From positions 186,001 to 250,000 of the forward strand of contig NZ_QAOW01000003.1 of the NCBI RefSeq assembly GCF_003051005.1: 64,000 nucleotides of DNA, given 5' to 3'. Positions 36,768 through 60,264 of the stretch are shown here, one piece after another. A program made the position numbers and the translations under genes. Below the pieces are notes generated by a model, which had not been told where the DNA came from, ran no database searches, and saw nothing but the letters and a program-made list of their open reading frames with translations. The stretch is from Rhodococcus sp. OK519 (GTDB lineage: Bacteria > Actinomycetota > Actinomycetes > Mycobacteriales > Mycobacteriaceae). Numbering within the stretch: position 1 is the stretch's first letter; every line of letters starts with the position of its first letter.

Positions 36768-38027
36768 TTACACCCGGCTGGGCTCGTCGACGACGTGTGC
36801 GTGTTCGTCGAAGCGCCGCAGCCGCTTGAAGGTGACAGCCAGCACGACGGTCGCCACCAGGCCGGTGGCGCCGTAGACCGCGAGTGCCGCCTCGATCGGT
36901 ACCAGTGCCGCGACGACACCGGCGGCGACAGCCCCCACCGATGCGCCTGCCGTGACCTGGGCCGACCACACACCCGCGATACGCGCGCCGTACTCCTCGG
37001 CGGTGTGCTTCTGGACGATCGAGTAGCGCAGGATGTCGGCGATCGCCTCGCCGAATCCGTGGGCCGCCAGACCGATCACGGTGACGGCGAGGGCTGCGGT
37101 CGCTCCGGCGCCGATGAGACCGGCCGCCGAGAGCAGCATGCCCACGAACACCGCTCGACCCGACCAGCGCACGGTGCCGGTCCATCCGCTGGTGAGGGAA
37201 CCGAGCACGGCGCCCACCGCCGGCGCGGCGTAGAGCAGACCCGTCACCGATGCGCCGACACCCAGCACCTCGGCCGCGTACTCCGGGATCAGGACAGCCC
37301 ACCCGGCGAGCAGCATCGTCACGAAGCCGCATACGAGCACGCCACCGATGACGCGCTGCGACGCCGCATAGCGGAATCCACTGGCGACCGCGCGCAGCGG
37401 TGACTCGCCGGCGGACCGCGGCGGCGGCAGCGACGGCAACCGGGTGATGCAGAACGTCGTGACCGCTGTGGTGATCGCGGCCAGGGCGAACGCGGATCCC
37501 ACTCCACCCGAGGCGATCACGACGCCACCGAGCGCCGGCCCGATCATCGCGCCCAGATCGCCGGTGAGCGCCATGAGCGCGCCCGCCGCAGCCATCTTGC
37601 TGCGCGGCAACAAGGTCGGGGTGACAGACATCAGCACGGTAGCCGAGATGCCCCCGCAGACACCGTCGATGATCGCGGCGAGGTAGACCACCCACAGCTT
37701 CGGGTCGGGCAGGAAGGCGTTGGCCGCGAGAACCGCGAACGCGAGGCCCGCGCATCCCCGAGCGAGAGCGATCACCCGGCGCCGGTCGTACCGGTCGGCG
37801 AGGATTCCGCCCGCGAAGGTCGCACCGAACGTCGTGATCCCCAGCACCGTCGACACCGCCGCGACGTGCGCGGTGGACCCGGTGATCTCGTAGACCTGCA
37901 GCGGGACCGCGACGATGAGGAAGCCGAGTCCGAACAGCGACACCACACGCGCAGTGAAGATGTACCGGAATTCGCGACTGGTCCGCAGCGGGTCGAGGTC
38001 GAGGCTCAGCCTCTCCAGAAGTGCCAC
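36768..38027 (-). CDS. EntS-like siderophore exporter (MFS)
   Basis: A 419-aa 12-helix major-facilitator protein clearly resembling enterobactin exporter EntS: SREFRYIFTARVVSLFGLGFLIVAVPLQVYEITGS, GGILADRYDRRRVIALARG and LLPRSKMAAAGALMALTGDLGAMIGP. It is expected to export the catecholate made by this cluster by proton antiport. The GTG start (VALLERLSLDLDPL) aligns with the EntS N terminus and lies seven bases after the carrier-protein stop. It belongs to the operon lipoprotein-NRPS-ArCP-exporter-reductase. Confidence 0.9.
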   Translation of the reverse strand: MALLERLSLDLDPLRTSREFRYIFTARVVSLFGLGFLIVAVPLQVYEITGSTAHVAAVSTVLGITTFGATFAGGILADRYDRRRVIALARGCAGLAFAVLAANAFLPDPKLWVVYLAAIIDGVCGGISATVLMSVTPTLLPRSKMAAAGALMALTGDLGAMIGPALGGVVIASGGVGSAFALAAITTAVTTFCITRLPSLPPPRSAGESPLRAVASGFRYAASQRVIGGVLVCGFVTMLLAGWAVLIPEYAAEVLGVGASVTGLLYAAPAVGAVLGSLTSGWTGTVRWSGRAVFVGMLLSAAGLIGAGATAALAVTVIGLAAHGFGEAIADILRYSIVQKHTAEEYGARIAGVWSAQVTAGASVGAVAAGVVAALVPIEAALAVYGATGLVATVVLAVTFKRLRRFDEHAHVVDEPSRV

Positions 38028-38034: not shown

Positions 38035-38259
38035 TCACCGCGGGTCGAGCAGCGCGAACCACTGCTCGAGGTCGGGTTCTGCTGCGAGCGACACGAAGTC
38101 GACATCCGCTCCGGAATCGCGCCAGCGTTCCACGAGTGCCATCAGCCGCACCGAGTCCAGGCCCTGGTCCACCAGGCTCACCGAGAGGTCGATCTCGGCG
38201 ACGTCCACATCCAGGATCTGTGCCGTGTCGGCGAGGATCGTGTCGCGGTCGAGTGACAT
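38035..38259 (-). CDS. Free-standing aryl carrier protein
   Basis: A 74-aa carrier protein: MSLDRDTILADTAQIL, then the phosphopantetheine site LVDQGLDSVRLMALVERW (Ser about 36). The GLDS-VRLM pattern and following VERWR are typical of aryl carrier domains of EntB/DhbB. The isochorismatase of this cluster (60.3 kb) lacks the usual C-terminal carrier domain, so this protein should carry 2,3-dihydroxybenzoate from the AMP ligase to the first NRPS. It sits in the other operon, 47 bases after the second NRPS stop. A phosphopantetheinyl transferase is required and must be encoded elsewhere. Confidence 0.88.
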   Translation of the reverse strand: MSLDRDTILADTAQILDVDVAEIDLSVSLVDQGLDSVRLMALVERWRDSGADVDFVSLAAEPDLEQWFALLDPR

Positions 38260-38305: not shown

Positions 38306-41300
38306 TCACGGAAGCGCGGGTGCCGGCACGCCCAGCAGTGCCACCATCGCCCGCTGCCACGCGGACGCGATCGCGTCGAGGGTGGCGTCGTCCAGCACGC
38401 CGGACGCCGCGAACTCACAGTCCAGGATCGGCCCGTCCGCCGTGTCCTCGACGACGGCATCCACCTGCAGGACGTGGTCGAGCGGCGTCGTCGGATCCAC
38501 CGATCCGCCCAGCGCCACACCCTCGGGTGCGCCGCTCCACGGTCCACCGGCGTTCTCTCCCAGCGTCATCCGGCCCAGGTAGTTGAACACGATCTGCGGA
38601 CGCACGTATCCGGCGAACGGGTCCTCGTTCGCGAGACGTCGCAATACGCCGAAACCGATCCCGTTGTCCGGCACCGATCGGAGCGACCGCGCGGCGCGCT
38701 CACCCGCCTCGTTCGCGGGCGCGAGGCCGTCGAGCACCTCGGCGACGTCGATGCCGCCGAGATCGAACGCGACGGGATACATCGACGTGAACCAGCCGAC
38801 CGTGCGGGCGACGTCCGCGCCGGGCACCACCTGTTCCTCGCGGCCGTGGCCCTCGAGTTCCACGCGAACCGTGGCGCCGCCGCGCACCGACGACACCGCG
38901 AGTGCCAGCGCCGCGAGCAGGGTTTCGTCGACGGCACCGCGGAGGGCTCGTTCCGTGATCGCCACCGGCAGCACACGCTTCACCGACCGGATCGCGGACA
39001 CCGTGTCGAGCGCCGGGTCGAGCGTTCGGACGCCGAGCACCGGTTCCCCGATCTCGGTGGCGCGCCGCCAGTATTCCGCGGTGGCGCCGATCTGTTCCGA
39101 GGCCGCCGCGTCGACGAGGCCGCGCGTCCAGGCCCGGAAGGGCGTGCCGGCGTCGGGCAGTGCGACGGGTTCGCCGCGAAGCGCCTGCCCGACAGCGGTC
39201 GCGAGGTCGGGTACCACGATCCGCCACGAGACGCCGTCGACCACCAGGTGGTTGATCGCCACGAACACCCGGTCCTGACGTCCGGGGCCGAAGTCGAACC
39301 ACACCACCTGCATCATCAGCCCGTCCTGTGGACGCAGTGTCGCGTAGGTGTTCTCCCGCTCGGCCGCGAACACCGCGCCCCACTCCTCGTCTGGGCACGA
39401 GGAGACGTCGACCCTGCGGACCACCGTCGAGACGTCCGGTACCTGTTCGGGCACCGACCATTTCACAGTGCCGTCCACTGCCGCGAACCGGGACCGCAGC
39501 ATGGGATGCACTTCCAGGAGCCCCACGACCGCGGCCTCGAGCACCGCCACCGTGAGCCCGTCGGGCGCCACCAGCAGGCGCGCCTGCGAGAACCGGCCCA
39601 GGTCGGTACCCCAGTTCACTGCTTCCCAGACGATCGGTGTCGGCAGCACCTCGCCGGTCCCCGGTGTAGCGGCCAGGGCCGCCGCCGCCGCGTCGAACTC
39701 CGGCTGTGGCGCCTGCCCGCACACGGCGGCAATAGCCGCGACGGTGCGCAGTTCGAACACCTGCCGTGCGGTCAGGCGCAGGCCCGCCGCGCGGCATCGG
39801 GACACCAGTTGGATCGAGACGATCGAGTCGCCGCCGAGCGCGAAGAAGTCGTCGTCGATGCCGACCCGCTCGAGTCCGAGCACGTCGGCGACCACCGCAG
39901 CGAGCATCGCTTCGGTATCTGTCCGGGGCTCACCGGATCCCACCAGCGCGGCGAAGTCCGGTTCCGGCAACGACTTCCGATCGATCTTTCCGTTCACAGT
40001 GAGGGAGAACTCCGCGAGCACCAGCACGGCCGCGGGAACCATGTAGTCGGGCAGGCATTCCGCGACGGCGGTGCGCGCCGTCGCCGGATCGAGGTGTCCG
40101 TCGGGGGTGACGTAGCCGACCAGGCGCGTCACTCCGCGGGTGTCGGTGTGTGCGACGACGATCGCGTCCCGCACCCCGCGGACTCCGGCCAGCGCGGCCT
40201 CCACCTCGCCGAGTTCCACGCGGAATCCACGGATCTTCACCTGGTCGTCGCCGCGCCCCAGGAACTCGAGTGCCCCGGTGATGCCGCGCCGCACGGTGTC
40301 GCCCGTGCGGTACATCCGCTCTCCCGTGACGCCGAACGGATCGGCCACGAATCGTGCGCCGGTCAGATCCGGTCTGCCCAGGTAGCCGCGCGCCACTCCG
40401 GCCCCCGCGATGTACAACTCGCCGGTGCTGCCGGCCGGGACGGGTCGCAGCATCCGGTCCAGCACGTACGCGCGGCCACCGTGGACCGCCCGACCCAGGC
40501 ACGGCTCGTCGGCCTCGGTGACCTGTCCGACGAGCGCGTCGACGGTGCACTCGGTGGGCCCGTACAGGTTGAACGCTCGCCCTTCGGTGAGCTCTCGCAG
40601 CCGACGCCACGATGCCGGGTTGACGGCCTCGCCGCCGAATCCGACGGTGGCGGGACGGTGTTCGCGATCGAAAAGACCGGCCGCCAGCATGCGGTCGAGA
40701 AACGACGGCGTCACCTCGAGGAAGTCGAGTCGGTGGTCGACGATGTAGTCGGTCATCGCGTCCGGGTCGCGCATGGTGTCCTCGTCGAACACGTGGACGG
40801 TGTGCCCGTCGAGCAGCCACAGCGTGGGCTGCCACGACGCGTCGAAGCTGAACGACCACGCGTGGCCGACGCCGATCGACTCCCGCCCGGTCGCCGTGAC
40901 CGTGGGGCGGTACAGGTCGGCGCGGTGACTCTCGAAGAGGTTGAGCAGGTTCGAGTGGGTGACGGCGACGCCCTTCGGCAGGCCCGTCGAGCCGGACGTG
41001 TAGATGACGTACACGGTATGGCCGGGTCGCAGGACGGCGAGACGGTCCACGTCGGTGACGGGAGTGCCGGCCAGAGTCCTCAGCACCGCTTCGACACTCG
41101 GGTCGTCGAGCACGACGACGGCGGTGCCCCGCAGGACGGGTTCGAGTACCGCATGCGCCGTGCTGTCGGTGACGACGACGGCCGGTGTCGAGTCGGCGAC
41201 CATGTGCGCCAGCCGGTCCGCTGGATACGACGGGTCAATCGGGACGTACGTGCCACCCGCGGCGATCACCGCGGCGATCGCCACCACCATCTGCTCCGAA

Positions 41301-44300
41301 CGCGGCAGCGCCAGGCCGACAACGGTGTCGGGGCCCACGCCGGACCCGATCAGCAGGCGTGCCAGGCGCGACGAGGCGGCACCGAGTTCTGCGAATGTCA
41401 GGCGGTCGTCACCGAACACGACCGCATCGGCGTCCGGTGACGTCGCGACCCGCACGGCGAGCAGGTCCGCCATCGTGGCGCACCCCGTTGCGGGCGCCGG
41501 CGCGGTGGCGGCCCAGTCGCCCACCAGCAGCGCCCGTTCCTCGCCCGAGAGCAGGTCCACGGCCGCAACGGTCGTGGCGTCCGGCGCGGACAGTTGCTCG
41601 AGGACCCGGACCAGACGCTGCCCGAGGGCGTCGACGTCGATCTCGCTGAACAGCGCCCGCTGGAATTCGAGCGTGAGAGCCAGTTCGTCGTCGAGTGCCG
41701 CGACGAGGACGAGCGGGAAGTTCGTGGCGTCGTGGCCGCGGACGTCGCTCACCTCGAGCCCTCCGGATTGCTGCGCGCGAGCCAGGGCGTCGGTGTCGAT
41801 CGGGTAGCTCTCGAACACCAACAGGGTGTCGAACAGTTCGCCGATCCCGACGCGGCGCTGGATGTCGGCGAGGCCCACGTACTGGTCGTCGAGGACGCTG
41901 TTCTGCAGAGCCTGTGCGCGACGGAGGAATTCGTCGATGGGCTCACCGGGTTGCAGGCTCACTCGCACCGGGACGGTGTTGATGAACAGGCCGATCATCG
42001 TCTCGATGCCGGCCACCTGGGGGACGCGCCCGGACACGACGGCGCCGAAGACGACATCGTCGCGGTCCAGCCGGTGACCGAGCAGCAGCCCCCACGCCGC
42101 CTGGACGACGGTGTTGACGGTGACGCCGAGTTCCCGGCTGCGGCGCTGCAGCTTCGCGGCCAATCCAGCCGGCACCGTGATCGCATGCTCCCCGGGCAGG
42201 TCCGCCCGCAGCGACGACCCGGCGGGCGCGAGCAGGGTCGGTTCGACGACCCCGCTCAACAGGTGGCTCCATCGCTGCAGGGCCGCGTCGGTGTTCTGCT
42301 CGGACAGCCACGCCAGGTAATCGGTGAACGGGCGAGCAGGGGCCAGCGCGGCGAGGTCCGCGTCGGCGCCGTAGAGCGTGAACAACTCCCGCATCACGAG
42401 CGGTGACGACCAGCCGTCGAGCAGGAGATGATGCGCCGCGAACACGAGTCGGTGCCGGTTCGGTGCGAGGCGGATCAGGGTGAATCGCAGCAGCGGCGCC
42501 GCACCGATGTCGAAACGGGTGATCCGGTCCTGCGCAACGATCTCGGCGCTGCGTTCGCGCTCCACGTCATCCGTGACGCCGGTGAGATCGACCTCAGTCC
42601 AGAGCAGTTCCGGGTCGGTGAGCACGACACCCATCGGGTCCCCGGCCGCGGTGGCGCGGAATCCGGTGCGCAGCGTCGCGTGCCGAGCCAGCAGGGCACG
42701 GGCGCTGCGCCGCATGACGTCGACGTCGAGATCGCCGCCCAGGTCCAGGACGGTCTGCATCGCGTAGACGTCGCTGTCCGAGTCGAGTTCGGCGAGGAAG
42801 AACAGGCCCCGCTGCAGCGGGGTCAGTGGTACGACGTCCTCGATCGGGCCCACTTCAGCTGCGAGGGAGAGCAGTTCCGGATAGTCGAAGCCTCGGTAGG
42901 TCAGGTCCGACGCGGTCCTGCCTCCCGTCGCCGCTGACGGCGTGTGCCGGGCGAGGGCCCCGAGGGCGTCGACCCAGCGGTCCGCGATCCGTGCCACCGT
43001 GTCGTGGTCCAGAATCTCGGCGGCAGCGGTGAACTCGCAGACCAGTTCGGGACCGTCGATGCCGTCCTCGGTCACCGCGTTCACATCGAGGATGTGCTCG
43101 AGCGGGGTCGCCGGATCGACGGCGCCACCGAGTGCACCCTCCTCCGGGGCTGCAGACCACGCGCCACCCGACTCCTCACCCAGGGTCAGCCTGCCGAGGT
43201 AGTTGAACATGACGTCGGGGGCCCGGTATCGATCGAGCCGGCCGGTCGCGTCACCGAGTCGTCGCAGTATTCCGAAACCGATGCCGCTGTCCGGGATTCG
43301 CCGCAGGCCGTCCTTGACCCGGGCGAGAGCAGTACCGGCGGCGGCGTCCCCGGACAGCGCGCCGGCCACGTCGATACCGCTGAGGTCGAGGACCGCCGGG
43401 TACAGCGACGTGAACCATCCGACGGTGCGCGACAGATCGGCGCCCGGCACCACGTGTTCCTCGCGTCCGTGGCCCTCGAGGTGCACGCGCACGTGTTCGC
43501 CGCCGCGCTCCGCGGCGATCGCGAGGCCCAGTGCGGTCAGCAGCACGTCGGCGACGCCCGCACGGTAGGCGGCGGGCGCCGTCGTGAGCAGACGCTCGGT
43601 GACGCGAGCCGGAACCCGGACTTCGACGGAGCGGGCGGATGCGACGGTGTCGCGCGCCGGATCGAGATCGCGCGCGCCGAGGGCAGGCTCCTCCTCGCCG
43701 GACAATTCCCGCCACATCGGCAGCGAATCGAGTATTCGCTTCGATCCGGCTGCCGACTCGAGTCCGACGGCCCAGTCCCGGAACGATGTTCCGGTCTCGT
43801 CGAGGGCGACGGTTGCGCCGCGCACTGCCTGTTCGACGGCCGACGCCAGGTCCGGCACCAGGATTCGCCACGACACGCCGTCGACCACCAGGTGGTGTAC
43901 GGCGATGAAGACACGCCCCGGACGTGCGGGGCCGAAGTCGAACCACACCGCCTGCAGCATCACGCCCGCATCGGGACACAGCGCCGCGTAGGCCTTCTCG
44001 CGTTCCGCTGCGAAAGTCTCGGACCATGATTCTTCGGTGACCGGCACTCGGCGCACCAGATTGTCGGCGCTCGGGACCTGCTCCGGGACAGTCCACTCCG
44101 GGACCGCGCCGGTGACGATGAACAGGGATCGCAGCATGTGATGGGTGGTGAGCAGAGCGGTCACCGCCGCCCGCAACGCGTCCTCGGTGATCGAGTCGGG
44201 AGCGACCAGCAACCTGGACTGGGCGAACCGGTCGAGCGGCGCGCCGTGGGAGACGGTGTCCCACACGATCGGTGTCGGCGGCACCTGACCGGTCGCCGCA

Positions 44301-47300
44301 ACGACGGTCCGCGACTCGCTCACCGGAATGTCCGGGGTGTCGTGTGCGGCGGCGAGGGCCGCGACGGTCCGCAGTTCGAACACCTGACGCGCAGTGATCC
44401 GGAGGTCGACCGCGCGAGCCCTGCTGACGAGTTGGATCGAGACGATCGAATCGCCGCCGAGGGTGAAGAAGTCGTCGTCGATGCCCACCCGTTCGAGATC
44501 GAGCACCTCGGCGACCACGGCGGCCAGGGCGGTCTCCGTCTCGGTGCGGGGCTCACCGGAGCCCACCAGCGCAGCGAAGTCCGGTTCCGGCAGCGCCCTC
44601 CGATCGACCTTGCCGTTCGCGGTCAGCGGGAACCGGGGCAGCGGCACGATCACCGCGGGGACCATGTAGTCGGGCAGGCGCTCGCCCACCTCCGCGCGCA
44701 CCGAGAGCGGGTCGGCCCCGCCTGCGACATACCCCACCAATCGGGTCACGCCGCGCCCATCGGTGTGTGCGACGACGACGGCCTCTCGCACACCGGACAC
44801 CTCCGTGAGTACCGACTCGATCTCCCCGAGTTCGACGCGGTAGCCGCGGATCTTCACCTGGTCATCGGCTCGGCCCGCGAACTCGAGTGCGCCATCGGAG
44901 GTCCACCGCACGACGTCGCCGGTGCGATACATGCGCTCCCCCGCGGCGCCGAACGGGTCTGCGACGAAACGTGATCCGGTGATCTCGGGCCGGTCGTGGT
45001 AGCCGCGCACCACGCCTGCGCCGGCCACGTACAGCTCACCGGCGACACCCGGTGGAGCATGCCGCAGCCAGCGATCGAGGACGTACACGCGGGTGCCGGG
45101 AATAGGCCTGCCGATCACGACGGCCGCGCCGCCGATCCGAGCGAACGTCGCATCGACGGTGCATTCGGTGGGGCCGTAGCAGTTGAAGGCCGCGACACCA
45201 CGGGCGCCTGCGGCATCGAGCCTGTCCCACAGTGCCTGCGACACAGCCTCCCCGCCCACCGTGAGTTGGGCCGGGACGTGTTCGGTGGACTCGAGCAATC
45301 CGGCGTCGAGTAGTTGGTTCATCAGCACCGGCACGCAGTCGACGTAGTCGATCCGATGGGCGCGGACGTAGTCGACGATGTAGCCGACGTCGGCGCGCCG
45401 GTCCTCGGCGAGCACGTGCAGGGTGTGGCCGTCGAACAGCCAGGTAAGTGCGGCGACCGCGGAATCGAACGCGAAGGGATACGTCAGCAGTACCCGGCGC
45501 GGGCGACCGGACACCACCGGCATCATCGTCTCCCGCTGCGCGGCATGCAGATCAGAGAGGTTGGCGTGGGTGACGACGACACCCTTGGGCAGACCGGTGG
45601 ACCCGGACGTGTAGATGACATAGGCGGCGTTGTCCGGTCGCAGCGGCGCGAGTCGGTCCGTGTCCGTGACCGGCGCCGGATCGAGTCCCGCCAGTTCCGC
45701 GCGCACGCCGGGGTCGTCGAGCACCAGAACCTCGGTCGGCGCGAGCACATCGTCCAACGACTCTGCGACCGCCGCCGTCGTCACGACGACGGTCGGGCGG
45801 GCATCGGCGACCATGTGCGTCAACCGATCCGTCGGGTACGACGGATCGAGCGGTAGGTACGCGCCCCCCGCGGCGAGCACCGCGGCGACCGCCTCCACCG
45901 TCGACGCCGAGCGCGGTAGGGCCAGCCCCACCCGAACATCGGGTCCGACGCCGCGGCCGATCAGCAACCGTGCCAGTCGTGCCGAGCTTGCGGCCAGTTC
46001 ACCGAACGTGCGCTGCTCGTCGTCGCAGATCACCGCGGGCAGCGCGGGATCGTGCCCGGAGAGCAGATCGACAACCGGCACGGCCGAGGTCGCGGCCGGC
46101 GTCGTCGACCACGCGTCCAGCGCCCGCATTTCGGTTTCCGGTAGCAGGGAGAGTGCGGCGATCCGCCCGGCGGGATTGCCCGCGAGCGCACCGAGCGTCG
46201 CGACCAGCCGCCGGCCCAGCGCCTCGACGTCGCTCGCGCGGAACAGTGAAGGGCGGTAGTCGAGTTTGACGACCAAGCGATCCGCGACGCCCGCGGTGAG
46301 CACGAGCGGATAGTTCGTGGCATCCACCGCGTCGACACCTGCGATCCCGACACCGCCTGCGCGCTGCGCGCGTTCGAGCGCGTCGCGGTCCACGGGGTAC
46401 GACTCGAAGATCGTCAGGGTGTCGAACAGTTCGCCCAGTCCGGTCTCGCGCTGCACCTCGGCCAGACCCAGGTACTGATGGTCGAGGGTGCGTGACTGAT
46501 CCGTCTGCACGCGGCGCAGCATGTCGGCCACGGTCGCGGCTGGGTCGAGACGAACCCGGACCGGCACGGTGTTGATGAACAGGCCCACCATCGATTCCAC
46601 GCCCGGCAGATCCGCAGGACGGCCCGACACCGTTGCGCCGAACACGATGTCGTCACGGCCGACCAGACCCGCCAGAAGCAGGGCCCATCCGGTCTGCAGC
46701 ACGGTGTTGAGCGTGACACCGCAGTCTCGCGCCAGCCCCGTCAACTGTTCGGTGAGGTCGGCGGAGACGTCGACGTCGATCGCGGTGGTGCCCTGCGTGT
46801 CACGCGTCGTTCCGGGCGGGGCGACGAGCGTCGGCTCGGACAGCCCTGCGAGCGATTCACGCCAGAGGGCTCGCGCCGTGTCGTGATCCTGGCGTCCCAG
46901 CCACGACAGGTAGTCACGGTAGGGCCGGACGCTCGGCAGCGCCGCGGCACTGCCACCGGCCGCGTAGATCTCGAGCAGTTCGCGCACCAGGATCGGTGTG
47001 GACCAGCCGTCGACGACGGTATGGTGCGCGGTCAGCAGCAGGCGCACGTCGTGGTCGGCGACTCGGATCAGCGCCCAGCGGACCAGCGGTGGTGCAGTGA
47101 GGTCGAACCACGTGTGCAGGTCCGCGTCGAGCAGGTCCGCAAGATCGCGTTCCGCATCGGTCGATCCTCGTAGATCCACACTGCGCCAGAGCACCTCGAT
47201 GTCCTTGACGACCAGGCCGGCGACGCGCCCGTCCTTGCGGGGACGAAAGCACGTACGCAGCGCCGCGTGCCGGTCCAGCAACGCCTGCGCCGAACGGTGC

Positions 47301-47473
47301 AGACGCTGCTCGTCGACGTCGCCGGTCAGTCGCAGCACCGACTGCACGGTGTACGCATCCGGCTCCTCCTGCGGCGCACCACGCTCCTCGACGATGGGAG
47401 CCGCGACTGTACTCAGGTAGTGCAGACCCTGCTGCAGGGGCGACAGCGGGACGACGTCTTCGAGCTTGGACAT
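38306..47473 (-). CDS. Siderophore NRPS, modules 3-4 (C-A-PCP-E-C-A-PCP-E)
   Basis: A 3055-aa two-module synthetase. Approximate domains: C 1-450 ([10 protein letters not shown], His about 150), A 460-965 ([11 protein letters not shown] near 625), PCP 975-1050 ([11 protein letters not shown]), E 1060-1500 ([18 protein letters not shown]), C 1525-1965 ([10 protein letters not shown]), A 1985-2500, PCP 2515-2590, E 2605-3055. Both C domains follow E domains and open [22 protein letters not shown], as D-accepting condensation domains do. Hand-read specificity codes: DSADTGCVD and DAQEGGLVD; substrates not assigned. The final E domain has NHLVVDG in place of HHLVVDG. No thioesterase or reductase follows. 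It acts after the NRPS at 48.7-56.4 kb. Confidence 0.9.
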
Positions 47474-47510
47474 GCAGTCGGTCTACTTCCGGTCGAGAGG
47501 GGTACCGGTA

Positions 47511-47551
47511 CGAGCACGGCCCCCGCGCAGGGGCGTCGGGGGCCGTGCTCG
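47511..47551 (-). terminator. Strong hairpin inside the siderophore operon
   Basis: A perfect 15-bp inverted repeat, CGAGCACGGCCCCCG (47511-47525) and CGGGGGCCGTGCTCG (47537-47551). It lies between the binding-protein stop and the NRPS start. It may partially terminate or stabilise the upstream mRNA so that the lipoprotein is made in excess over the synthetase. Confidence 0.6.
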
Positions 47552-47561
47552 AGCCGGGGTG

Positions 47562-48578
47562 TTACTGCTTGGCCGCGGGCAGCGCTCCGAGACCCTCGTC
47601 GATCGAATCGAGGGCGAGTAGCGCAGTCTGATGCGTTGCGGCCTGGGCGTGCTTGACCTGAACGATGTTCCCGGCCTTCACAGCGGGCAAGTTCTGCCAC
47701 AGCGGCGACGCGATCAGTTCCTGCATCTCCGGCGTGACGGATCCGTCGAGCTCGACCCCGTAGACGATGACGTCGGCGCCACTGAGCTTGTCGGAAATCC
47801 TCTCGAACGCAACGTACTCGGAGTGTCCGTCCTCCGGGTTGTCGGTCTGGCCGGGGAACTGCAGACCGAGATCGTCGAACAGGTTCGTGACGTACGAGGA
47901 CTTGTACTCGCGGACGAACTCACCCGGGTCGGGGAAACACACGCTGCACACACCAGCGAACGTCAGTCCGCCGAGCTTGTCCTGGTACTTCTTCGAAATC
48001 TCTTGGGTCCGTGCGTCGTACTGGTCGATGAACGCACCGTACGAATCGGAAACGTTCGCGGCATCCGCGAACTGCTCACCGAGTGTGCGCCAGTCCGCCG
48101 GTGTCGTGGGGCCGAGGAACACGACCGGTGCCAGTGCCTGCAGCTTGCCCATGTCGACCTGCGACTGGGCGCGAGACGGTACACCGAGGATGATCAGGTC
48201 CGGCTTGGCCGCCGTGACCGCCTCGTAGTTCAGTTCGCTGATCGAGCCGTCGGGACCGACCTTCGGAAGGGCGTCGTACGCCTTCTTGGTGTCGGCGTCC
48301 ATGTTGTCGTCCTCGCGGCCCCACTCACAGATGCCGGAGAGATTGGCGCCGGACTGGATCAGCGGCAGCACTGCGTAACCGCAGGCAACGATGCTCTGGG
48401 GATCGCTCGGGATTTCGATCGTGCCGTTCTGCGCCTCGAACGTGCGGGTCGTGGCAGCAGCGGTGGCCTCGTCCGATCCCTTGTCGTCGTCGCTGCCACA
48501 CGCCACCAGTCCAGCGCTCAGCAGCGCGGCGGCGCCGACCACGGCTGCCCGGCGGGCCCAGCCCATGTTCACCTGCAT
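47562..48578 (-). CDS. Iron-siderophore-binding lipoprotein (FecB/FepB type)
   Basis: A 338-aa class-III periplasmic-binding-like protein anchored by a lipobox (LSAGLVACG; lipidated Cys about residue 27). The domain motifs are IVACGYAVLPLIQSG, AAKPDLIILG, and VIVYGVELDGS...AVKAGNIVQVKHA. It should deliver the ferric siderophore to an ABC importer that is not in the window. The ATG chosen has GGGGAG about eight bases upstream; an earlier ATG eight codons upstream does not. Two cysteines in VCSVCFPDP are unusual for this family. It is the first gene after an IdeR box. Confidence 0.9.
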   Translation of the reverse strand: MQVNMGWARRAAVVGAAALLSAGLVACGSDDDKGSDEATAAATTRTFEAQNGTIEIPSDPQSIVACGYAVLPLIQSGANLSGICEWGREDDNMDADTKKAYDALPKVGPDGSISELNYEAVTAAKPDLIILGVPSRAQSQVDMGKLQALAPVVFLGPTTPADWRTLGEQFADAANVSDSYGAFIDQYDARTQEISKKYQDKLGGLTFAGVCSVCFPDPGEFVREYKSSYVTNLFDDLGLQFPGQTDNPEDGHSEYVAFERISDKLSGADVIVYGVELDGSVTPEMQELIASPLWQNLPAVKAGNIVQVKHAQAATHQTALLALDSIDEGLGALPAAKQ

Positions 48579-48631
48579 GCGAGTGTCTCCCCTAGATTTC
48601 ATCGTTCGATGCCGAGCGGTCGCTCGAGTCG

Positions 48632-48650
48632 ATTGGTTAGGCTAACCGAA
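48632..48650. promoter_or_regulatory. IdeR/DtxR iron box before the binding-protein operon
   Basis: ATTGGTTAGGCTAACCGAA matches 16 of 19 positions of the IdeR consensus TTAGGTTAGGCTAACCTAA, with the 13-bp core perfect. It lies 54 bases before the lipoprotein start and should repress lipoprotein, NRPS, ArCP, exporter and reductase genes under iron-replete conditions. Confidence 0.9.
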
Positions 48651-48688
48651 CTTTGCCCTGGTTCCAAGAGCGCGCCCGATCATCGGAC

Positions 48689-51600
48689 TCACAGGAATTC
48701 CATTTCGAACTCGTCGATTTCGGACTGATCGAGGTCGGCGAGGGTCAGATCGGACGGCGTCAACCCGCCTGCGGCGTCTCCCGCGCAATGCCCGCTCAGC
48801 GCACACAGCGCGTCGACCCATGCTCCGGCCAGGCTCGTGACGACTTCGGCATCGACCACCGCGGGACTGAAGCCCCAGGTGGCACGGAGCACCGGGCCGT
48901 GCTCGGTGTCCTCGGTGACGGCGCCGATCTCGACGGCGTGGCTGACGGGCATGTCCCCGTCGGCCGCTCCACCGAGCGTGCTCGATTCCGGTGCACTCGT
49001 CCACGACCCACTCGCCGACTCCCCCAGCGTGAACCGGCCGAGGTAGTTGAAGCCGATCTCGGACCCGCGCCCGGTCGCCAACACGGCCTGCGAAGCAGGA
49101 TCGAGGTGACGGAGGATGCCGAAACCGATTCCGCTGTCGGGAATGCGACGCATCTGCTCCTTGACGGATTTGAGTGCATCGCTCACTGATTCGCCGCCGG
49201 CGAACGCGTCCGGCAGATCCACCCCGTCCACGTCGAGCAGCACCGGGTACAGCGTCGTGAACCACCCGACGGTGCGCGACAGGTCGGCGCCCGGCACCGC
49301 CTGCTCCTCGCGTCCGTGGCCTTCGAGGTCGATCGGCAGGGCGCCCGGCCCCTGAATCTTCGCGACGGCCAGGGCCAGGGCGGTGACCAGAACGTCGTCG
49401 ACGCGCGCGTTGAACCGCTCCGGCACGATCGTCAGCAGTGCGTCGGTCACGTCCCCGGGTACGGCGACCTCGATGGTTGAGGTCCCGGACATCGTGTCCC
49501 GCAGCGGATCGACGGCCCGGGTGCCGATCGCCGCTCGGTTCGGCGCATTCGCCGCGGCCAGCCACATCGGGAGTTCGCTCCGCCGTTCGGAGGCCGTCTC
49601 GACCACGCCGCGAGACCATGTGCGCAGCGGCGTTCCGGTCACCGAGAGCGCGGTACCCGCGCATGCGTCCGCGAGGTCCGGCACGAGGATGCGCCACGAC
49701 ACACCGTCGACCACGAGGTGGTGGATCACCAGCAGCACGAGCGACTCGGACTCACCCGCGTCGAACAGCACCACGCGCACCATCGCACCGCCGGCCGGAT
49801 CGAGGCGCCCGTACGCGTCGTCGGTAGCGGACCGAACAGCCTCGCTACGCGCGTGGCCGTGAAGTCCGCGGATATCGATGTGAGACACGATATCCGCGGC
49901 GGGCACCGCACCGGGCGAGGGGATCTCGAACAAGCGGTCGGTCTCATCGAAGGACGCGCGCAACGCGTCGTGCGTGTCGAGCAACGCCTGCACCGCGTCG
50001 GTGAGCGTCGCGAGCGTCAACCCGTCCGGCGCGCGCAGAAGTCGCGACTGCGCGAACCTCGAGTACGGACCGCCGCGGTCGAGAAGATCGTGAACGATCG
50101 GGGTAGCAGGCGCGAATCCGAGCCCGGCCTCGGGATCCACGGGGGCGGCGTCTTCCTCCGCCTCTGCGACTGCCGCCACTCCCGCGGCCGTCCGGTGTTC
50201 GAAGACGTCGCGCGCAGTGAATCGAATCCCGGCGGCGCGGGCGCGAGAGACCAACTGAATCGAGACGATCGAATCCCCTCCGAGGGAGAAGAAGTCGTCA
50301 CCGGGCCCCACGTCGTCGAGACCCAGAACGTCCGCGACCACGGCGCACAGGCGGCGCTCGAGATCGGTCCCGGCATCGTGTGCCGTGCCCGACGATGTGA
50401 AGTCCGGCGCCGGCAGCGCCTTGCGATCGACCTTGCCGTTGGGCGTGACCGGCAGTGCATCGAGCACGACGACGGCGGCGGGCACCATGTGCGCGGGCAG
50501 ACGCGAGGCCAGATGCTCCCGCAGGCCGTCACCGTCGACAGAATTCGCCACGGCCACGTACCCGACGAGGCGGCGTCGGCCCGGTTCGTCCTCGCGCACG
50601 ACCACCGTCGCCGCCGCCACCGCGGGATGAGACGCGAGCGCCGACTCGACCTCGCCGAGTTCGATACGGAAGCCGCGGATCTTCACCTGGTCGTCGGTGC
50701 GGCCCAGGTATTCCAGCGAGTACTCGAGTCCACCCGATCGCTTCCATCGCACCAGATCCCCGGTGCGGTAGAGCCGTTCGCCGGGCTCACCGAACGGATC
50801 CGCCACGAAGCGTTCCGCGGTGAGCCCGGGCCGGTTCAGATAGCCGCGGGTGACGCCTGGCCCTCCCACGTACAACTCGCCCGGAACCCCACTGGGCACC
50901 AGACGCATCCGTGCATCGAGCACGTGAGCACGTGCTCCGTCGACCGGAAGGCCGATGTGGGGCCGAGTACCCGTGATGTCACCGATCGTGGCATCGACGG
51001 TGCATTCGGTGGGACCGTACATGTTGGTGGCGCGGACGTCGTCTGCGTCGGCGAGTGCGGCCCACAGATCCTCGGAGACCGCCTCACCACCGACGGCGAG
51101 CAGGCCCGGACGGTGCGCTGCAGCAGGATCGAGCAGGCCCGCGCGCAGCAGTTCGGTCATCAACAGCGGTACACAGTCGACGGCGTCGATCCGTGCGCGG
51201 CGCACGCAGTCGACGATGCCCGCCGCGTCCGCAGCGAGGTCGGCGTCGAGCACGTGCAGCGTGTGCCCGGCCAGCATCGACAGCAACGGGTCGATCGCCG
51301 AGTCGAAGGCCAGCGCGTACGTGAGCAGCACCCGCAACTGCCGGTCGTCGGCGGAACCGAACGTCCGGCGGCGTTGCGTCGCCATCAGATTCACGACACC
51401 GCGGTGCGGGACGACGACGCCCTTCGGAACGCCCGTCGACCCGGACGTGTAGATCACGTACGCGGCGTTGTCGGCGGTGGATGTGCCGAGTCGCTCGCCG
51501 GTCGCGAGCGGCCCCGACGCCAGCGCCGGGTCCACCGCGGCGAGGGCGGCCTCGTCGAGCACCAGCACGGGCGCAGCATCGGTGAGCATGTGTGCAATCC

Positions 51601-54600
51601 GGTCGGCAGGATAGGCCGGGTCGATCGGCAGGTAGGCGCCGCCGGCCTGCCACACCGCGAGCGCCGCGATCACGATGTCGGAGCCGCGGGGAAGCTGCAG
51701 GGCCACCACAGTTTCCGGACCGACACCGCGGGCGAACAAATGCCGTGCGAGGCGATTGACGCGCCCACCCAGATCCGCGAATGTGAACTCGGTCCGTCCC
51801 TCTACGAGGGCGATCGCATCGGGCGTGCGCGCAACCCGATCGTCGAACGCCGCTGCCGCGGTCTGGAAGCCGACATGGGCGGCGGGGATCAGCGAGCCGC
51901 AGGTGAGGCGTTCACGCTCCTCGGCCGACAGCAGGTCGACGTCCGACAACCGGGCCTCGGGTGTGTGGACCAGGGCACTGAGCGCCCGCACCACCCGGTC
52001 CACCAGGCCCTCGGCCGTGGCCGCGTCGAACAGGTCGTGGGCGTACTCGATCCGGACGCGTAGCCCGTCGCCGGGCAACTCGACGACGTCGACGGTGAGA
52101 TCGAACATCGCGGCGCCGGTGTCGATCGTGACCACACTCGGTTCGAACTCCGCGAAGTCCCCGACGACGGGCGGCATCCGGTGCTGCACCAACACCTGGA
52201 ACAGCGGGTGCCGGGACGCCGAACGCTCGGGATTGAGCGCCTCCACCAAGCGATCGAACGGAAGATCCTGGTGGGCATAGGCTTCGAGATCCTCCGCGCG
52301 GACGCGAGTGACCAGCTCACGCAGGGTGGGATCCCCCGACAGATCGGAACGCAGCACCACGAGGTTGACGAAGAAGCCGACGAGCTGGTCGAGTTCGGCG
52401 GCCGGCCGACCCGCGGTGGGCGTGCCGACCACGACGTCGGCGCCGGCACCGCTGCCGCTCAACGCGAGCGCGACCGCGGTGTGCGAGAGCATGAACATCG
52501 ACGCGCCTGCCGAACGCGCGAGACTGCGCAGGCCGTCGGCGACGTCGGCGGAGACGGCACGCTCGACGAGGCCGCCCGTGGACGTCGCTGCCGCCGGACG
52601 GTGCCGATCCGTCGGCAGCGCGATCTCCTCCGGCATTCCGGCCAGGCGCGTACGCCAGAACTCGTGCTGCGTGGATGCGAGGCCGTCCAGGTCGTCGTCG
52701 GATCCGAGCAGATCCCGCTGCCACAGTGCGTAGTCCGCGTACTGCACAGGTAGTGCCGCGACCGAGAACTCATCGCCCGCGACAGCGCCGCGGTACGCGG
52801 TACCGAGGTCGCGCAGCAGCACGGGCGTCGACAACTCGTCACTCGCGATGTGGTGGGTCAGCACGAGGAGCACCGACTCGTCGCCGGTCACGAACAAGCG
52901 CAACCGGATCGGGAACTCATTGTCGAGATCGAACGGGTATCGGGCCGCATCCACGAGGATCGAGTCCAGCTCACCGGCATCGACGTGTTCCACGGCGAAC
53001 GGCACTGCCTCGGGGACAGGGCGCACGTGCTGCATGCCGACGCCGTCGACGTCCGCGAGCACGGTGCGCAGCACCTCGTGGCGGCCCAGTACCGCTGTGG
53101 TCGCCACACGCAGGGCCCCGGCGTCGGGCACGCCGCGCAGACGCAGAGCCACGGGAATGTTGTAGGTGGAACTCGGGCCCTCGAGCCGGAACTGGAACCA
53201 CAGCCGCTGCTGGGCCGCCGACAGCGGCGAGACCGGGCCCCGGTCGACGGGCCGCACCGCCGGGCGGTTCCCCGCTCCCGCGGCGACAGCGCACTGTTCG
53301 GCCAGACCGAGGACGGTGGGATGGTCGAACACGGCCCGGATGGCCAGTTCGACACTCACCGCATCGCGCACTCGGGCGATCAGCTTCGCGGCCGCCAGCG
53401 AATGGCCGCCGAGTAGGAAGAAGTCGTCGTCCACCCCCACGGTATCGAGGCCGAGGACGTCGGACACGAGCGCGCACAGCACCCGTTCGAGCTCGGTGGA
53501 CGGCTCTCGCGCCGGGATCGCCGTGGTGAAGTCGGGGTCCGGCAGCAGTTTCCGGTCGATCTTGCCGTTCGACGTCAGGGGCAGCGCGTCGAGGAACACG
53601 AACGCCGCAGGAACCATGTAGGCGGGCAGCCACTTCGCGACCCGGTCCCGGGCACCCGTGTGGTCGCCGTCGCCCCCGACGAGGTACGCGACCAGGCGCG
53701 CCGATCCGGTGGAGTCGGGGCGGGCGACCGCGACGGCGCGGGCGACGCCGGGCAGACGCAGCATGGCGGCCTCGACCTCGCCGAGTTCCACCCGGAAGCC
53801 GCGGATCTTGACCTGATGATCGGTCCGGCCGCGGTAGACGATCTGCCCGTCTGCCGTGCGCTGCACGACGTCTCCGGTCCGATACATCCGCGAGGAATCG
53901 CCCGTCGGATCGACACAGAACGGGTTCGCGACGAAACGTGATGCCGTCAGCGCCGACGCGCCCAGGTAGCCGCGCACCACGCCCGGTCCGGCAACGTACA
54001 GCTCGCCCGGTGCTCCGTCGGGGACCGGGTTCAGTCCCGAATCGAGCACGTACGCGCACAGGTTCGCGACCGGACTTCCGATGACGGGCTCGGAGGCATC
54101 GGTGATCTCGGCGACCACGACGTCGACGGTGCCCTCGGTGGGGCCGTAGAAGTTGAACGCTGTGCCCCCTCGCTCGCGCAGTCGACGCCACAGGTTCTCG
54201 CTCACAGCGTCACCGCCGAAGCCCAGCGTGGGGACGATGTCGGCGGGCAGCAGGTCGGCGTCGACGATGTGCTCGAGTTGCGACGGCGACAGTTCCACGA
54301 AGTGCCAACCCTCGGCCCGCGCCTGCGCCGCGAGCAGCGCCGGATCGCGTTGTGTGTCCTCGTCGACCACCCGCAGTTCGTGCCCCGCGAGCATCCACAG
54401 GTGTGGGCCCCACGACGCATCGAAGGCGAACGACCACGCGTGTCCCACCCGAAGTCGATCCCGCCCCGCGACCGCGCATGCCCGGGAGAACACCCGGTCC
54501 CGGTGGCTGTGGAAGAGACTCACGGCGCCACGGTGCGGCACCTCGACACCCTTGGGCAGCCCCGTGGAACCGGACGTATGGATGATGTAGGCGATGTCGA

Positions 54601-56437
54601 GATCGTGCAGACGATGGCCGCGTTCGGCGGCGGTCAGCGGTTCGTCGGTTCCGACGCTCAGGTCCAGCGCTGCGAAGTCGACGATGCGAAGCTCGCCCGT
54701 CACATCGCGGAGTCGTTCCCCCACATCACCGCTGGTGACGATGCATCCCGGTTCGGTCTCGGCCAGCACGTGAGCGATGCGGTCGGCGGGATGGCCGCGG
54801 TCGATCGGCACGCACGTGCCACCGGCCTCGAGGACCGCGAAGAGCGCGACGAGGGTGTCGACCCCGCGTGGGAGGGCGACCGCGATCCTTCGGTGCGGGC
54901 CGAGGCCGCTCGCGAGCAGCATGCGGGCAAGTCGCCGAGCCCGGGACGCCAACTCGCCGAACGTCAGCGACGTCGACGCGTCACCCGCCGCGGGCGCATC
55001 CGGATCACGGAGTACCTGCGACTGCAGGAGGTCGGGCAGCGTGAGCCCCGACGGAACCGGCACGGTCTTGCCGGCGGAGCCGTCGAGCAGTGCCCGACGC
55101 TCGATGGGGGTGAGTACGGGCAGTCGGGCGAGCGCAACGGATCCGGGATCAGCGAGGGCCGCCACCGAATCCATCAGATGTGCGAGCCGATTCGCGTGTA
55201 CGGCGAGGTCGTCGTCGGTGTAGCGCTCGGCGTCGACATCGATCCACACCTCGAGACCGCCGACGTGGTCGAGGGGGCGCGCGGTGACCATGAGGTCCTG
55301 CAGCGGCCCCCGAGCCACCGAGTGCACCGCGGCGTGTAGGTCGTCGAAGCGCAGGCGGTCGCCGAAGGGCTTCACGTTCACGGACGGGCCCACGACCCCG
55401 CGGGATCCGGCGGGCAGACGCAGATCGTTCTGAATGTCCTCGCCGCGGTAGCGGTAGTGACCGCGGCACCCGGCGACGGCGTCGCGGACCTGCTCGACGA
55501 GCGCACCGACGGTCATCGACGGCGCCGGATCCAGGCGCAGCGGAACAACGTTGACGGCGGACATCGGAACGGCAAGCGCCGCACTCCCCAGACGGTTCAT
55601 CACCGGGAACCCGACGACGATGTCACCGCGCCCACTGGCACCGCGCAGGTAGACCGCGACCGCCGCCGTGAGGACATCGCCCCAACTGGCCCGTGCCGTC
55701 TTACCGACGGCGGCCAGCCCGCGCTGCTGCTCGGCGGTGAGGGTGAGCCGCATTCCACGTGACGCGCGTGCGATTCCGGCCGCGCCCGCCGACAGCGTCA
55801 CGGCCTCCGCGGCGTCGTCGAGGTAGTCCGCCCAGAACACGCGGTCGACCTCGAAATCGGGCGATTCGCGGTAAGCCGCCTCCTCCGCCACGACGGGAGC
55901 GAGGGACGTGAACTTGCAGGCCGGACGGTCCTGTCCGCGCGCGTCGGCGGTGTAGATCTCGGCGATCCTCCGCATCAGCAGCCCGAAGCCGTAGGCATCG
56001 ATGACCAGATGGTGAATGCACAAGTACAGCAGAGCTATACGGTCGTCCAGTTGGAAAACCGTGGCACGCACACAGGATTCCGATCGCGGGTCGATCACCC
56101 GCCGGTGATCAGCCTCCATCAGGCCTTGGGCAGCGGACCACGAGTCTCGCCGATGACGCAGATCTCGAACCGACACGTCGCCGAGACGATGGGCAGCGGG
56201 CCGCAGATGCGCGGTGCCGTCGGACGCGATCTCGACTGCGGCAGTGAGCACTTCGGCCTCGCCGACCGCCACCCTGACAGCACCGACAAGCATCTCGATG
56301 TTCACGTCGCCGCGAAGTTCGATACATTCGGCGGTGTTGAAGATCGGATTGTCGGGGTCCAGCTGCTGAGCGAACCACACGCCGGCCTGGGCTCGGGTCA
56401 GTGGAAATGCCGAGGTCGACGGGCCGGTCGGGGACAC
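48689..56437 (-). CDS. Siderophore NRPS, modules 1-2 (C-A-PCP-C-A-PCP-E)
   Basis: A 2582-aa synthetase. Approximate domains: C 10-445 ([10 protein letters not shown], His 142-143; accepts the DHB group), A 460-970 ([11 protein letters not shown]), PCP 985-1050 ([11 protein letters not shown], Ser 1013), C 1070-1505 ([10 protein letters not shown], 1195-1201), A 1535-2015, PCP 2025-2090 ([11 protein letters not shown], Ser 2056), E 2110-2582 ([28 protein letters not shown]). The GGHS and GGDS carrier sites fit a non-epimerising and an epimerising module. Hand-read codes: DAGEGGFVD and DSDDAGMVD; not assigned. The GTG with AGGAG upstream at 56437 is preferred over the ATG 25 codons earlier. Confidence 0.9.
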
Positions 56438-56526: not shown

Positions 56527-56545
56527 AAAGGTTAGGCTAACCGTA
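56527..56545. promoter_or_regulatory. IdeR/DtxR iron box in the divergent NRPS-dhbC promoter
   Basis: AAAGGTTAGGCTAACCGTA matches 15 of 19 positions of the IdeR consensus, with GGTTAGGCTAACC perfect at 56530-56542. It lies between the first NRPS (minus) and the DHB genes (plus), about 90 and 71 bases from their starts, so one site can control both directions. Confidence 0.9.
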
Positions 56546-56615: not shown

Positions 56616-57761
56616 ATGCCTGCACCGGTCGTCGCAGCGAACACCCCGCACCTCACCGGAACGACGGTCACGAACCCGTTCGTCCTGTCCCGGCCACAGG
56701 GAAGCATTCGCGCAGAGGGTGTTCTGCGTCACTTCGACCACGCCGGTGAGGCGGCGGACGCGCTGCGCGCCGGCGATGTCACCGCCCTGACCGGCGCGCT
56801 GCCCTTCGATCCCGACACTCCCGCGGCCCTCGTCGAACCCGGACTACTGTGGCGCAGCGACAAACCCTGGCGCAGCATCCCCACCTCGGACCTCCCGGAA
56901 TGCGGCGTCGAGCAGCGCCTGCCCGGCGAGGACGAGCACGTGGCCCGCGTCCGAACGGCCCTCCACCGCCTTCGCGACGACGCCGATCCCCTGCGCAAAG
57001 TGGTACTCGCCCGGATGTTGCGGCTGCGCTCGCATGGACGGCTGGATCCGGAGTCGTTGCTGCAGAGCCTCATCGCCAACGATCCTGCGGGCAACGGCTA
57101 CTGCGTCGATCTGTCCGCGGCCGGTCCGGGGAGTGCCGGTCAGTGGCTGGTCGGATCCAGCCCCGAGGTCCTGATCCGCAAGCAGGGCCGGGCGATCAGC
57201 TGTCATCCGCTGGCCGGGTCGGCACGACGCCTGGACGATCCGCTCGCCGACTGGGAATCGGGACGCGCGCTGGGAGAATCCGCGAAGAACCTGGACGAGC
57301 ATCGGTTCGTCGTGGACGCGATCCGGGACAGCCTCGCGCCGCTGTGCACCGAACTCGAGATTCCGGAGCGACCGACGCTCACCCACACCCCACAACTGTG
57401 GCATCTGGGTACCCCGATCCGGGGCGTGCTCGCCGACACTTCGGTGACAGCGCTCGACCTGGCGATGACGGTGCACCCCACGCCGGCGATCTGCGGCACC
57501 CCCACCCGCGCGGCGTTCGAGACGATCAGCGCGCTGGAAGGCGACCGCGGCTTCTACGCCGGCGCGGTCGGCTGGTGCGACGAGCGCGGCGACGGCGAGT
57601 GGATGGTCACCATCCGCTGCGCCCGGATCGACGCCGACGGCACCGGTCTCACCGCATACGCCGGTGGCGGCATCGTCGCCGATTCCGTCCCCGAGGACGA
57701 GTTGGCCGAGACCGCAACCAAGTTCACCACCATCCTCGACGCACTGGGAGTGACCGCATGA
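56616..57761 (+). CDS. dhbC: Isochorismate synthase
   Basis: A 381-aa chorismate-utilising enzyme of the EntC/DhbC type, converting chorismate to isochorismate with magnesium. Recognised blocks are LRKVVLARMLRLRSHG, WLVGSSPEVLIRKQGRAISCHPLAGSA, HRFVVDAIRD, HPTPAICGTPTRAAFETI and FYAGAVGWCDERGDGEW. It catalyses the first step of 2,3-dihydroxybenzoate synthesis. AAAGGTGAG precedes the ATG, and the stop overlaps dhbA by four bases. The upstream IdeR box should make it iron-repressed. Salicylate synthases share this fold, but the neighbouring DHB genes favour isochorismate. Confidence 0.92.
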   Translation: MPAPVVAANTPHLTGTTVTNPFVLSRPQGSIRAEGVLRHFDHAGEAADALRAGDVTALTGALPFDPDTPAALVEPGLLWRSDKPWRSIPTSDLPECGVEQRLPGEDEHVARVRTALHRLRDDADPLRKVVLARMLRLRSHGRLDPESLLQSLIANDPAGNGYCVDLSAAGPGSAGQWLVGSSPEVLIRKQGRAISCHPLAGSARRLDDPLADWESGRALGESAKNLDEHRFVVDAIRDSLAPLCTELEIPERPTLTHTPQLWHLGTPIRGVLADTSVTALDLAMTVHPTPAICGTPTRAAFETISALEGDRGFYAGAVGWCDERGDGEWMVTIRCARIDADGTGLTAYAGGGIVADSVPEDELAETATKFTTILDALGVTA

Positions 57762-58531
57762 CCGCACCGCTGTGCCTGGTGACCGGTGCCGGACGGGGCA
57801 TCGGTCGCACCACGGCTGTCACCCTGGCACAGCGCGGGTGGCGCGTCGCCGTGCTCGACCGTGACACCGACGCGCTCGAGCGAACCGGGGAACTCGTCGG
57901 CGCCGCGTGCGTCGCCGCCCATGCCGTCGACATCCGCGACCGCGCGTCCGTGGCCGACGCCGTGGCCACGATCGAATCGCTGCACGGTCCGCTGGACGGT
58001 CTCGCGCACGTCGCCGGTGTCCTCGAGACCGGGTCGGTGCTCGACAGCGAACCCGACTCGTGGAAACGCGTATTCGACGTGAACGTCACGGGTCTACTGA
58101 ACGTGCTGCGCGCCGTCGGAGTGTCGATGCGCGAGCGCGGATGTGGTGCGATCGTCGTCGTGGGCTCCAACGCCGCGGGGGTTCCGCGCACTGGAATGGG
58201 GGCCTACGGCGCCTCGAAGTCTGCGGCGACCATGATCGCACGGGTCACGGGACTCGAACTGGCGCAGCACGGTATCCGTGTGAACGTCGTGGCGCCCGGT
58301 TCCACCGACACCGACATGCAACGATCCCTCTGGCCCGATCCGGGCGACGACACCGGTGCGCGCGGTGCCATCGAGGGCAGCCTCGCCGACTTCAAGGTGG
58401 GAATCCCGCTGGGCCGCATCGCCGCCGCCGAGGACATCGCCGATTCGGTCGAGTTCCTGCTGTCCGACCGCGCCCGGCACATCACGATGCAGGCGCTCTA
58501 TGTCGACGGCGGCGCGACGCTGCAGGCCTGA
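57758..58531 (+). CDS. dhbA: 2,3-dihydro-2,3-dihydroxybenzoate dehydrogenase
   Basis: A 257-aa short-chain dehydrogenase that oxidises 2,3-diDHB to 2,3-dihydroxybenzoate with NAD+. It has the TGAGRGIGR cofactor loop, the Asp of VLDRD expected for NAD, catalytic Ser in VGSNAAG and Tyr/Lys in GAYGASKSA. Placement between isochorismate synthase and the DHB ligase supports this substrate over other SDR roles. It is coupled to dhbC by ATGA. Confidence 0.9.

Positions 58532-58581: not shown

Positions 58582-60264
<1,683 letters not shown>

Follow-up and report, generated by a model that had tools for sequence, protein, structure and literature searches.

A thioesterase-less, epimerisation-ended siderophore synthetase line in Rhodococcus and its probable release as a hydroxyornithine lactam

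The genome of Rhodococcus sp. OK519 (5.28 Mb in 28 contigs) encodes, within the 64,000-nucleotide stretch analysed here (the window; C3:186001-250000), a four-module non-ribosomal peptide synthetase (NRPS) line that is predicted to start on 2,3-dihydroxybenzoate (DHB) and whose second synthetase, NRPS2, ends in an epimerisation (E) domain with no thioesterase (TE) behind it. This ending is real and conserved, and it is ordinary once the substrate of the last module is read. We consider it fairly likely that the line, of the rhequibactin type and probably iron-regulated, is released without a TE as a terminal D-hydroxyornithine lactam; by analogy, it joins the known TE-less, E-ended hydroxyornithine-lactam siderophore lines of the kasichelin, scabichelin and amychelin kind.

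An assembly line that ends in an epimerisation domain

Pfam matches give NRPS2 four condensation-type (C), two adenylation (A) and two peptidyl carrier (PCP, or T) stretches, and our own domain models order the two synthetases, both with uninterrupted reading frames, as Cstart-A-T-LCL-A-T-E for NRPS1 and DCL-A-T-E-DCL-A-T-E for NRPS2. An earlier reading of this DNA from its letters alone (the sequence-only reading) had given the same order and had reported the absence of a TE and a reductase from the cluster, and both statements are borne out. The last module is C-A-T-E with nothing after it, as in TE-less hydroxyornithine-lactam lines, and no TE, reductase or terminal C domain follows NRPS2 at the locus. 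A frameshifted or otherwise hidden TE after position 38306, which the sequence-only reading had raised as an objection to itself, was not found either: the roughly 285 bases up to the likely GTG start of the neighbouring exporter are occupied by a stand-alone carrier protein of 74 amino acids, which that reading had overlooked. In the whole genome, PF00975 has 13 matches, five of them strong and in NRPS open reading frames (ORFs) at other loci, one in a 1655-amino-acid ORF and seven weaker; its single match on the NRPS contig is below the cut-off and lies about 190 kb past the end of the window. The thioester-reductase family PF07993 has six matches in the genome and none on the NRPS contig.

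Of 401 genomes of the family, themselves a subset of a larger group, 21 were found to carry the same line at a threshold of E <= 1e-125; the window's genome and several Rhodococcus species are among them. All 21 loci were inspected, one of which (G106) is cut at a contig end within NRPS1. NRPS1 has a single architecture in the other 20 loci, NRPS2 comprises one module in two loci, two in 17 and three in two, and irrespective of this number an E domain ends the line, with no TE, in every locus. A TE or reductase at the orthologous loci was sought by eye among the matches listed for the 20 relatives, and none was present. Although an assembly in so many contigs leaves room for the idea that a TE was lost through mutation or assembly error, the ending is uninterrupted within its contig, precedes a carrier gene and an exporter gene that are both intact, and is shared by 21/21 genomes; this explanation is already contradicted and its probability is negligible. 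An enterobactin-like trilactone was likewise rejected. EntF and DhbF of the enterobactin and bacillibactin systems have a C-terminal TE and a Ser/Thr module, neither of which occurs in the window's line, none of the four A domains having a Ser/Thr-like code as judged by what we take to be the Ser and Thr pocket codes.

Phylogenetic analysis of 49 C and E domains places the terminal domain of NRPS2 in a clade of 20 E rows (support 100/100), apart from every C class; the proposals that it is a C domain and that a terminal C domain releases the chain were accordingly rejected. The clustering with C domains that the sequence-only reading had put forward against itself did not occur, and its statement that the chain would end on a carrier beside an E domain holds. 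The terminal E domains of the family form one clade (support 98 with 12 loci, 100/99 with six) nested within the line's other E domains, which indicates that they arose by duplication of an ordinary epimerase. E-domain catalysis depends on the second His of HHxxxDG and on the Glu of EGHGR, both of which are conserved in 21/21 terminal E domains. Mean identity among orthologues is similar for the E domain of NRPS1 (0.654), the first internal E domain (0.644) and the terminal one (0.655), so the terminal domain does not appear to be decaying, and it is probably an ordinary epimerase.

The two synthetases differ in what follows the final E domain. A donor tail, which we label COM-like by assumption, is present on 21/21 NRPS1 proteins and on 0/21 NRPS2 proteins, and E-ended donors of the TycA/GrsA kind carry such a tail after the E domain, as NRPS1 does and NRPS2 does not. 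The scores of TIGR01720, 133.5 on the NRPS1 E domain and 63.6 on the terminal E domain, the latter below the cut-off of 74.2, accord with this pattern. The tail bears on the possibility that NRPS2 passes its chain to a further NRPS or a stand-alone C domain encoded elsewhere, as E-ended synthetases such as NRPS1 indeed do. A conceivable recipient is an orphan C-domain-like ORF of 512 amino acids (C1:651519-652460; PF00668, 76.6 bits), but it is on another contig and reaches only 41 bits against the LCL model, on which the C domains of the line itself score far higher. With the tail missing from every NRPS2, such a handover is rejected as very improbable.

Last substrate and proposed release

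In the last A domain of NRPS2, the stretches FDASWQP, EVTP[ST], GFGG, L and VD are present in 21/21 loci when read by eye, a script having read 18 in full. The resulting pocket is DA(W)EGGLVD; it corresponds to DAWEGGLVDK, given as the scabichelin hydroxyornithine code in the portion of PMC7692728 consulted, with the terminal Lys not read and position 239 dependent on the alignment. The last module is accordingly predicted from its pocket to load N5-hydroxyornithine. The first A domain also has a hydroxyornithine-like pocket (FDAS, G.G, F and VD in 21/21; E at position 278 read in seven; V in place of W in two), and the middle modules, so far as the script could read them, show DS..D.G...VD, which resembles lysine codes. 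A tree built from 51 A domains places the four of this line in one clade (100/100), along with an MbtF-like domain and the DMENLGLINK-type domain of the genome's other siderophore NRPS. As for the supply of the substrate, a strong ornithine N-oxygenase is encoded in 21/21 genomes, in 18 of them on the NRPS contig (counted in line-bearing genomes only). Two loci from a different genus (G061, G077) have it within the operon, as the last gene behind entCAEB; of the remaining 19 genomes, 16 have it on the NRPS contig, roughly 25-80 kb from NRPS1, and three on another contig. The sequence-only reading had described a catecholate line. The catecholate start stands, and a purely catecholate nature does not: with N5-hydroxyornithine as the predicted substrate of the last module, the line is probably mixed catecholate-hydroxamate.

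The following route would account for the ending. DHB would be activated by EntE and loaded on the stand-alone carrier; NRPS1 would add residue 1, from its hydroxyornithine-like pocket, and residue 2, epimerise residue 2 and pass the chain through its COM-like tail to NRPS2, which would add residue 3, also epimerised, and then the last residue, predicted to be N5-hydroxyornithine. The terminal E domain would convert this residue to the D form, whereupon its side-chain hydroxylamine would displace its own thioester to give a six-membered N-hydroxy-lactam, a step for which no thioesterase would be required. The N-hydroxy-lactam would double as a bidentate hydroxamate iron ligand, and since release and formation of the last iron ligand would be one reaction, neither a TE nor an acyltransferase would be needed for the last residue. 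The predicted product is DHB-L-X-D-Y-D-Y-D-cyclo-hydroxyornithine, where X is hydroxyornithine-like and Y lysine-like.

A precedent for this chemistry is kasichelin of Streptomyces, as described in the text of PMC12305651: KasG is C-A-PCP-E, the line has no TE, and the product ends in a D-N-hydroxyornithine lactam, as determined by Marfey analysis. KasE/KasG resemble the window's line in the hydroxyornithine module C-A-PCP-E, the missing TE, the single-domain carrier and the aryl cap (PMC12305651). The kasichelin line differs in having a heterocyclisation (Cy) domain and an oxazoline followed by just two residues, according to the same text, whereas the window's line has four residues (its relatives three to five) and no Cy domain was seen in it. 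The sequence-only reading had offered release by an outside enzyme or a new role of the last domain as the two choices; this proved too narrow, since self-release as a lactam, the end group of kasichelin, fits better.

Comparable endings and competing routes of release

Outside the family, 28 E-ended ORFs in loci L011-L075 were compared; the set was assembled from sequences similar to the present E domain, its members are not independent, and a simple script was used to read the pockets. Seven lack the tail, and five of these have an E-G-G-L-V-D pocket, a pocket that occurs in 0/19 of the tailed ORFs read (20 in all, one unread); one further ORF has a different long extension. Two long NRPSs that end in a tail-less E domain, L016:2-16240 of Lolliginicoccus and L048:2-16267 of Williamsia, have a last pocket that we take to be a Gln-like code. 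The notion that a tail-less E domain is exclusive to hydroxyornithine lines was dropped, since these two break the rule. The other siderophore NRPS of the window's genome, rhequichelin-like and situated beside the oxygenase gene, was discarded as a model of E-ended release, as it ends in a C domain.

Five Amycolatopsis and Lentzea lines (L018, L038, L043, L050, L056), which we take to be amychelin-like, have proteins that end in DCL-A-T-E with the same readable pocket residues and no COM-like tail. They differ from the window's line in a formyltransferase-like gene (so named by look only) and in terminal E domains that form a separate clade; the code of their other modules is presumably Ser-like. 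In L134, scabichelin-like by code only, and in Phytohabitans nrps-3, the last A pocket is DAWEGGLVDK, followed by T and E with no TE; scabichelin, unlike the product expected here, is a hydroxamate siderophore without DHB, and the terminal E domain of L134 stands elsewhere in the tree. Mycobactin terminates in a hydroxylysine lactam, and L133, MbtF-like as named from its pocket, ends in A-T-E with a 12-residue end, no tail and no TE. It differs from NRPS2 in its Lys-type code, seven-membered lactam, HHxxxDV motif and distant E domain.

Several points weigh against release of the window's line as a hydroxyornithine lactam. Of the 21 terminal E domains, only 10 retain the first His of HHxxxDG, which is replaced by Asn in 10 and by Asp in one; in other E domains it is changed in 2/42 within the family and in 7/107 elsewhere, and such replacement could alter the activity of the terminal domain. 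The assignment of pocket position 239 hinges on the placement of one gap, the residue printed for MbtF at this position in the passages of PMC12195549 consulted is Q rather than W, and sequence cannot separate hydroxyornithine from ornithine. The window genome has its only strong ornithine N-oxygenase at C3:285959-286978, about 39 kb past entB and beside another siderophore NRPS, so that hydroxyornithine would have to be supplied by cross-talk. Two tail-less terminal E domains elsewhere, those of L016 and L048, lack a hydroxyornithine pocket. Finally, release of amychelin, the ending of which is similar, is credited in the text of PMC12305651 to a stand-alone hydrolase, AmcB.

The last point introduces the most serious competitor, in which lactam formation or hydrolysis is the work of a discrete AmcB-like hydrolase whose gene lies elsewhere in the genome, and the several further ORFs with weak PF00975 matches would provide candidates. 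Against it, an AmcB homologue is said to be absent from the kasichelin cluster (PMC12305651, as far as its text was available), and among the window's own genes tested no hydrolase occurs in all 21 loci. A gene for the S9 peptidase PtrB is nearby in 16/21 loci, but on either side of the cluster and together with purC. Around two amychelin-like clusters, no conserved ORF fits the GxSxG pattern, in a search made without the AmcB sequence as query. We regard such a hydrolase as possible but unlikely.

Alternatively, the terminal E domain itself might catalyse release, promoting lactam formation in addition to its epimerase activity. It remains last while the number of modules varies, its first His is frequently replaced in the family, and tail-less terminal E domains after hydroxyornithine- or lysine-type last modules stand at four separate places of the E-domain tree (supported branches force at least four changes, the other E domains being a sample). 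However, the terminal domain lies among ordinary epimerases with its active site kept, the five Amycolatopsis and Lentzea terminal E domains retain both His residues, and a search for residue positions that mark such domains as a group yielded just two alignment columns, neither with a functional reading. Catalysis by the E domain therefore seems improbable. Similarly doubtful is its bolder form, in which a single active site couples epimerisation to the formation of the N-hydroxy-lactam and E-ended siderophore lines of at least four actinobacterial lineages have converged on this arrangement, so that an E domain without a COM tail would mark release in general, as a signature separate from those of TE, reductase and terminal C domain. 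Self-release as a D-hydroxyornithine lactam thus remains the reading we prefer.

Locus, neighbouring genes and implications

The features of the locus are listed in Table 1.

Table 1. Siderophore line and adjoining features, in window coordinates
Feature	Position	Strand	Remarks
Siderophore-interacting (ViuB-like) reductase fused to O-methyltransferase-like domain	34907..36736	-	
EntS-like major facilitator superfamily (MFS) exporter	36768..38021	-	likely GTG start
Stand-alone carrier protein, 74 amino acids, GLDSVRLMALVE	38035..38259	-	PF00550, 28.9 bits, cut-off 20.8; presumed DHB aryl carrier
NRPS2 (IupT-like)	38306..47473	-	3055 amino acids; DCL-A-T-E-DCL-A-T-E; no COM-like tail
Terminal epimerisation domain of NRPS2	38357..39634	-	HHxxxDG intact
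Last peptidyl carrier domain of NRPS2	39725..39904	-	PF00550; would carry finished chain
Last adenylation domain of NRPS2	40379..41452	-	pocket DA(W)EGGLVD; predicted N5-hydroxyornithine
Ferric-siderophore binding lipoprotein (Peripla_BP_2)	47562..48602	-	between NRPS1 and NRPS2
Iron-box core GGTTAGGCTAACC	48635..48647		upstream of binding protein and NRPS2
NRPS1 (IupS-like)	48689..56437	-	Cstart-A-T-LCL-A-T-E; DHB acceptor, first two residues; COM-like donor tail at end; start at GTG 56437 or TTG 56512 (48689-56512)
Iron-box core GGTTAGGCTAACC	56530..56542		between NRPS1 and entC
Isochorismate synthase (EntC/DhbC-like)	56616..57761	+	TIGR00543 above cut-off; DhbC and EntC models below theirs
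EntA-like short-chain dehydrogenase	57758..58531	+	
EntE-like 2,3-dihydroxybenzoate-AMP ligase	58618..60264	+	start approximate; TIGR02275 712 bits, slightly below cut-off 724
EntB-like isochorismatase, 214 amino acids	60272..60916	+	no carrier domain

The genes entC-entA-entE-entB, divergent from the NRPS genes, would make and activate DHB. Because the EntB-like isochorismatase has no carrier domain, the small carrier encoded behind NRPS2 is likely to be the DHB aryl carrier, and its GLDSVRLMALVE motif resembles that of EntB. The carrier protein, exporter and binding protein are each encoded in 21/21 loci, and entC and entA in 20/21, the exception being the cut locus G106; entE is likewise present in 20/21, the match in the cut locus being a 27% one to an NRPS frame. 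The entB gene was observed in 11/21 loci within the stretches fetched, one locus being cut, and other genomes may source EntB elsewhere. The two iron-box cores, searched for with a consensus that we assume to be the appropriate one, are the only exact ones in the window, and none arose in 100 shuffles. With at most one mismatch allowed, an iron box lies between NRPS1 and NRPS2 in 21/21 loci and, as scored, near the NRPS1 start in 18/21, which suggests that the siderophore line is iron-regulated.

Judged by its genes and their sequences, the locus is the orthologue of the rhequibactin (iupS/iupT) locus of R. equi, a correspondence that the sequence-only reading had missed. The latter locus comprises, in the text of PMC2947987, REQ08100-30 (DhbCAEB homologues) and REQ08140-60 (Rbt1/IupS), with MFS and siderophore-binding-protein genes close by, and the rhequibactin NRPSs are two, named IupS and IupT in the passage of PMC5550956 consulted. 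The DHB genes, the NRPS pair and the binding protein are common to the window and R. equi, and the orthologues on the contig of the R. equi type strain have the same gene and domain order, with the terminal 498 residues 79% identical. Whereas the rhequibactin synthase is called dimodular in the 2010 paper (PMC2947987, in the text seen), four modules in two proteins are counted in both the window and R. equi. No rhequibactin structure was found in the literature text searched; the review PMC7502451, which names rhequibactin among others, refers at that point to Table 1 and to a structure figure lying outside that text.

Some further observations concern the surroundings of the line. The reductase fusion matches PF08100 above and PF00891 slightly below the cut-off, and its C-terminal part was seen in 4/21 loci, namely the window, two of the same genus (G002, G004) and G159. 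Two similar ORFs in tandem (30486-31178 and 31290-31952, both +) have opening residues that, to our eye, look like those of metallo-beta-lactamase-fold hydrolases. The ptrB and purC genes (60972-63999, - in the window) flank the cluster on the entB side in four loci, the window included, and in 12 they lie on the side of the exporter, a pattern that would fit inversion or re-insertion of the siderophore block at a single chromosomal site.

If the line is released as proposed, an apparent defect becomes a prediction: for the rhequibactin type, a siderophore of mixed catecholate-hydroxamate character is expected, with a D-hydroxyornithine lactam at its end. Rhodobactin has two catecholates and one hydroxamate. 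This siderophore of R. rhodochrous OFS is described as mixed hydroxamate-catecholate, with its gene cluster said to be unidentified, in the text of PMC7502451. As a lead only, such lines may be the source of rhodobactin, with the present locus as a candidate gene cluster type for it. A terminal E domain, the absence of a COM tail and a hydroxyornithine pocket together offer a sequence rule for TE-less siderophore lines, and the naturally occurring three-, four- and five-residue lines, similar in their endings, are well suited to separating spontaneous, E-assisted and hydrolase-driven lactam release.

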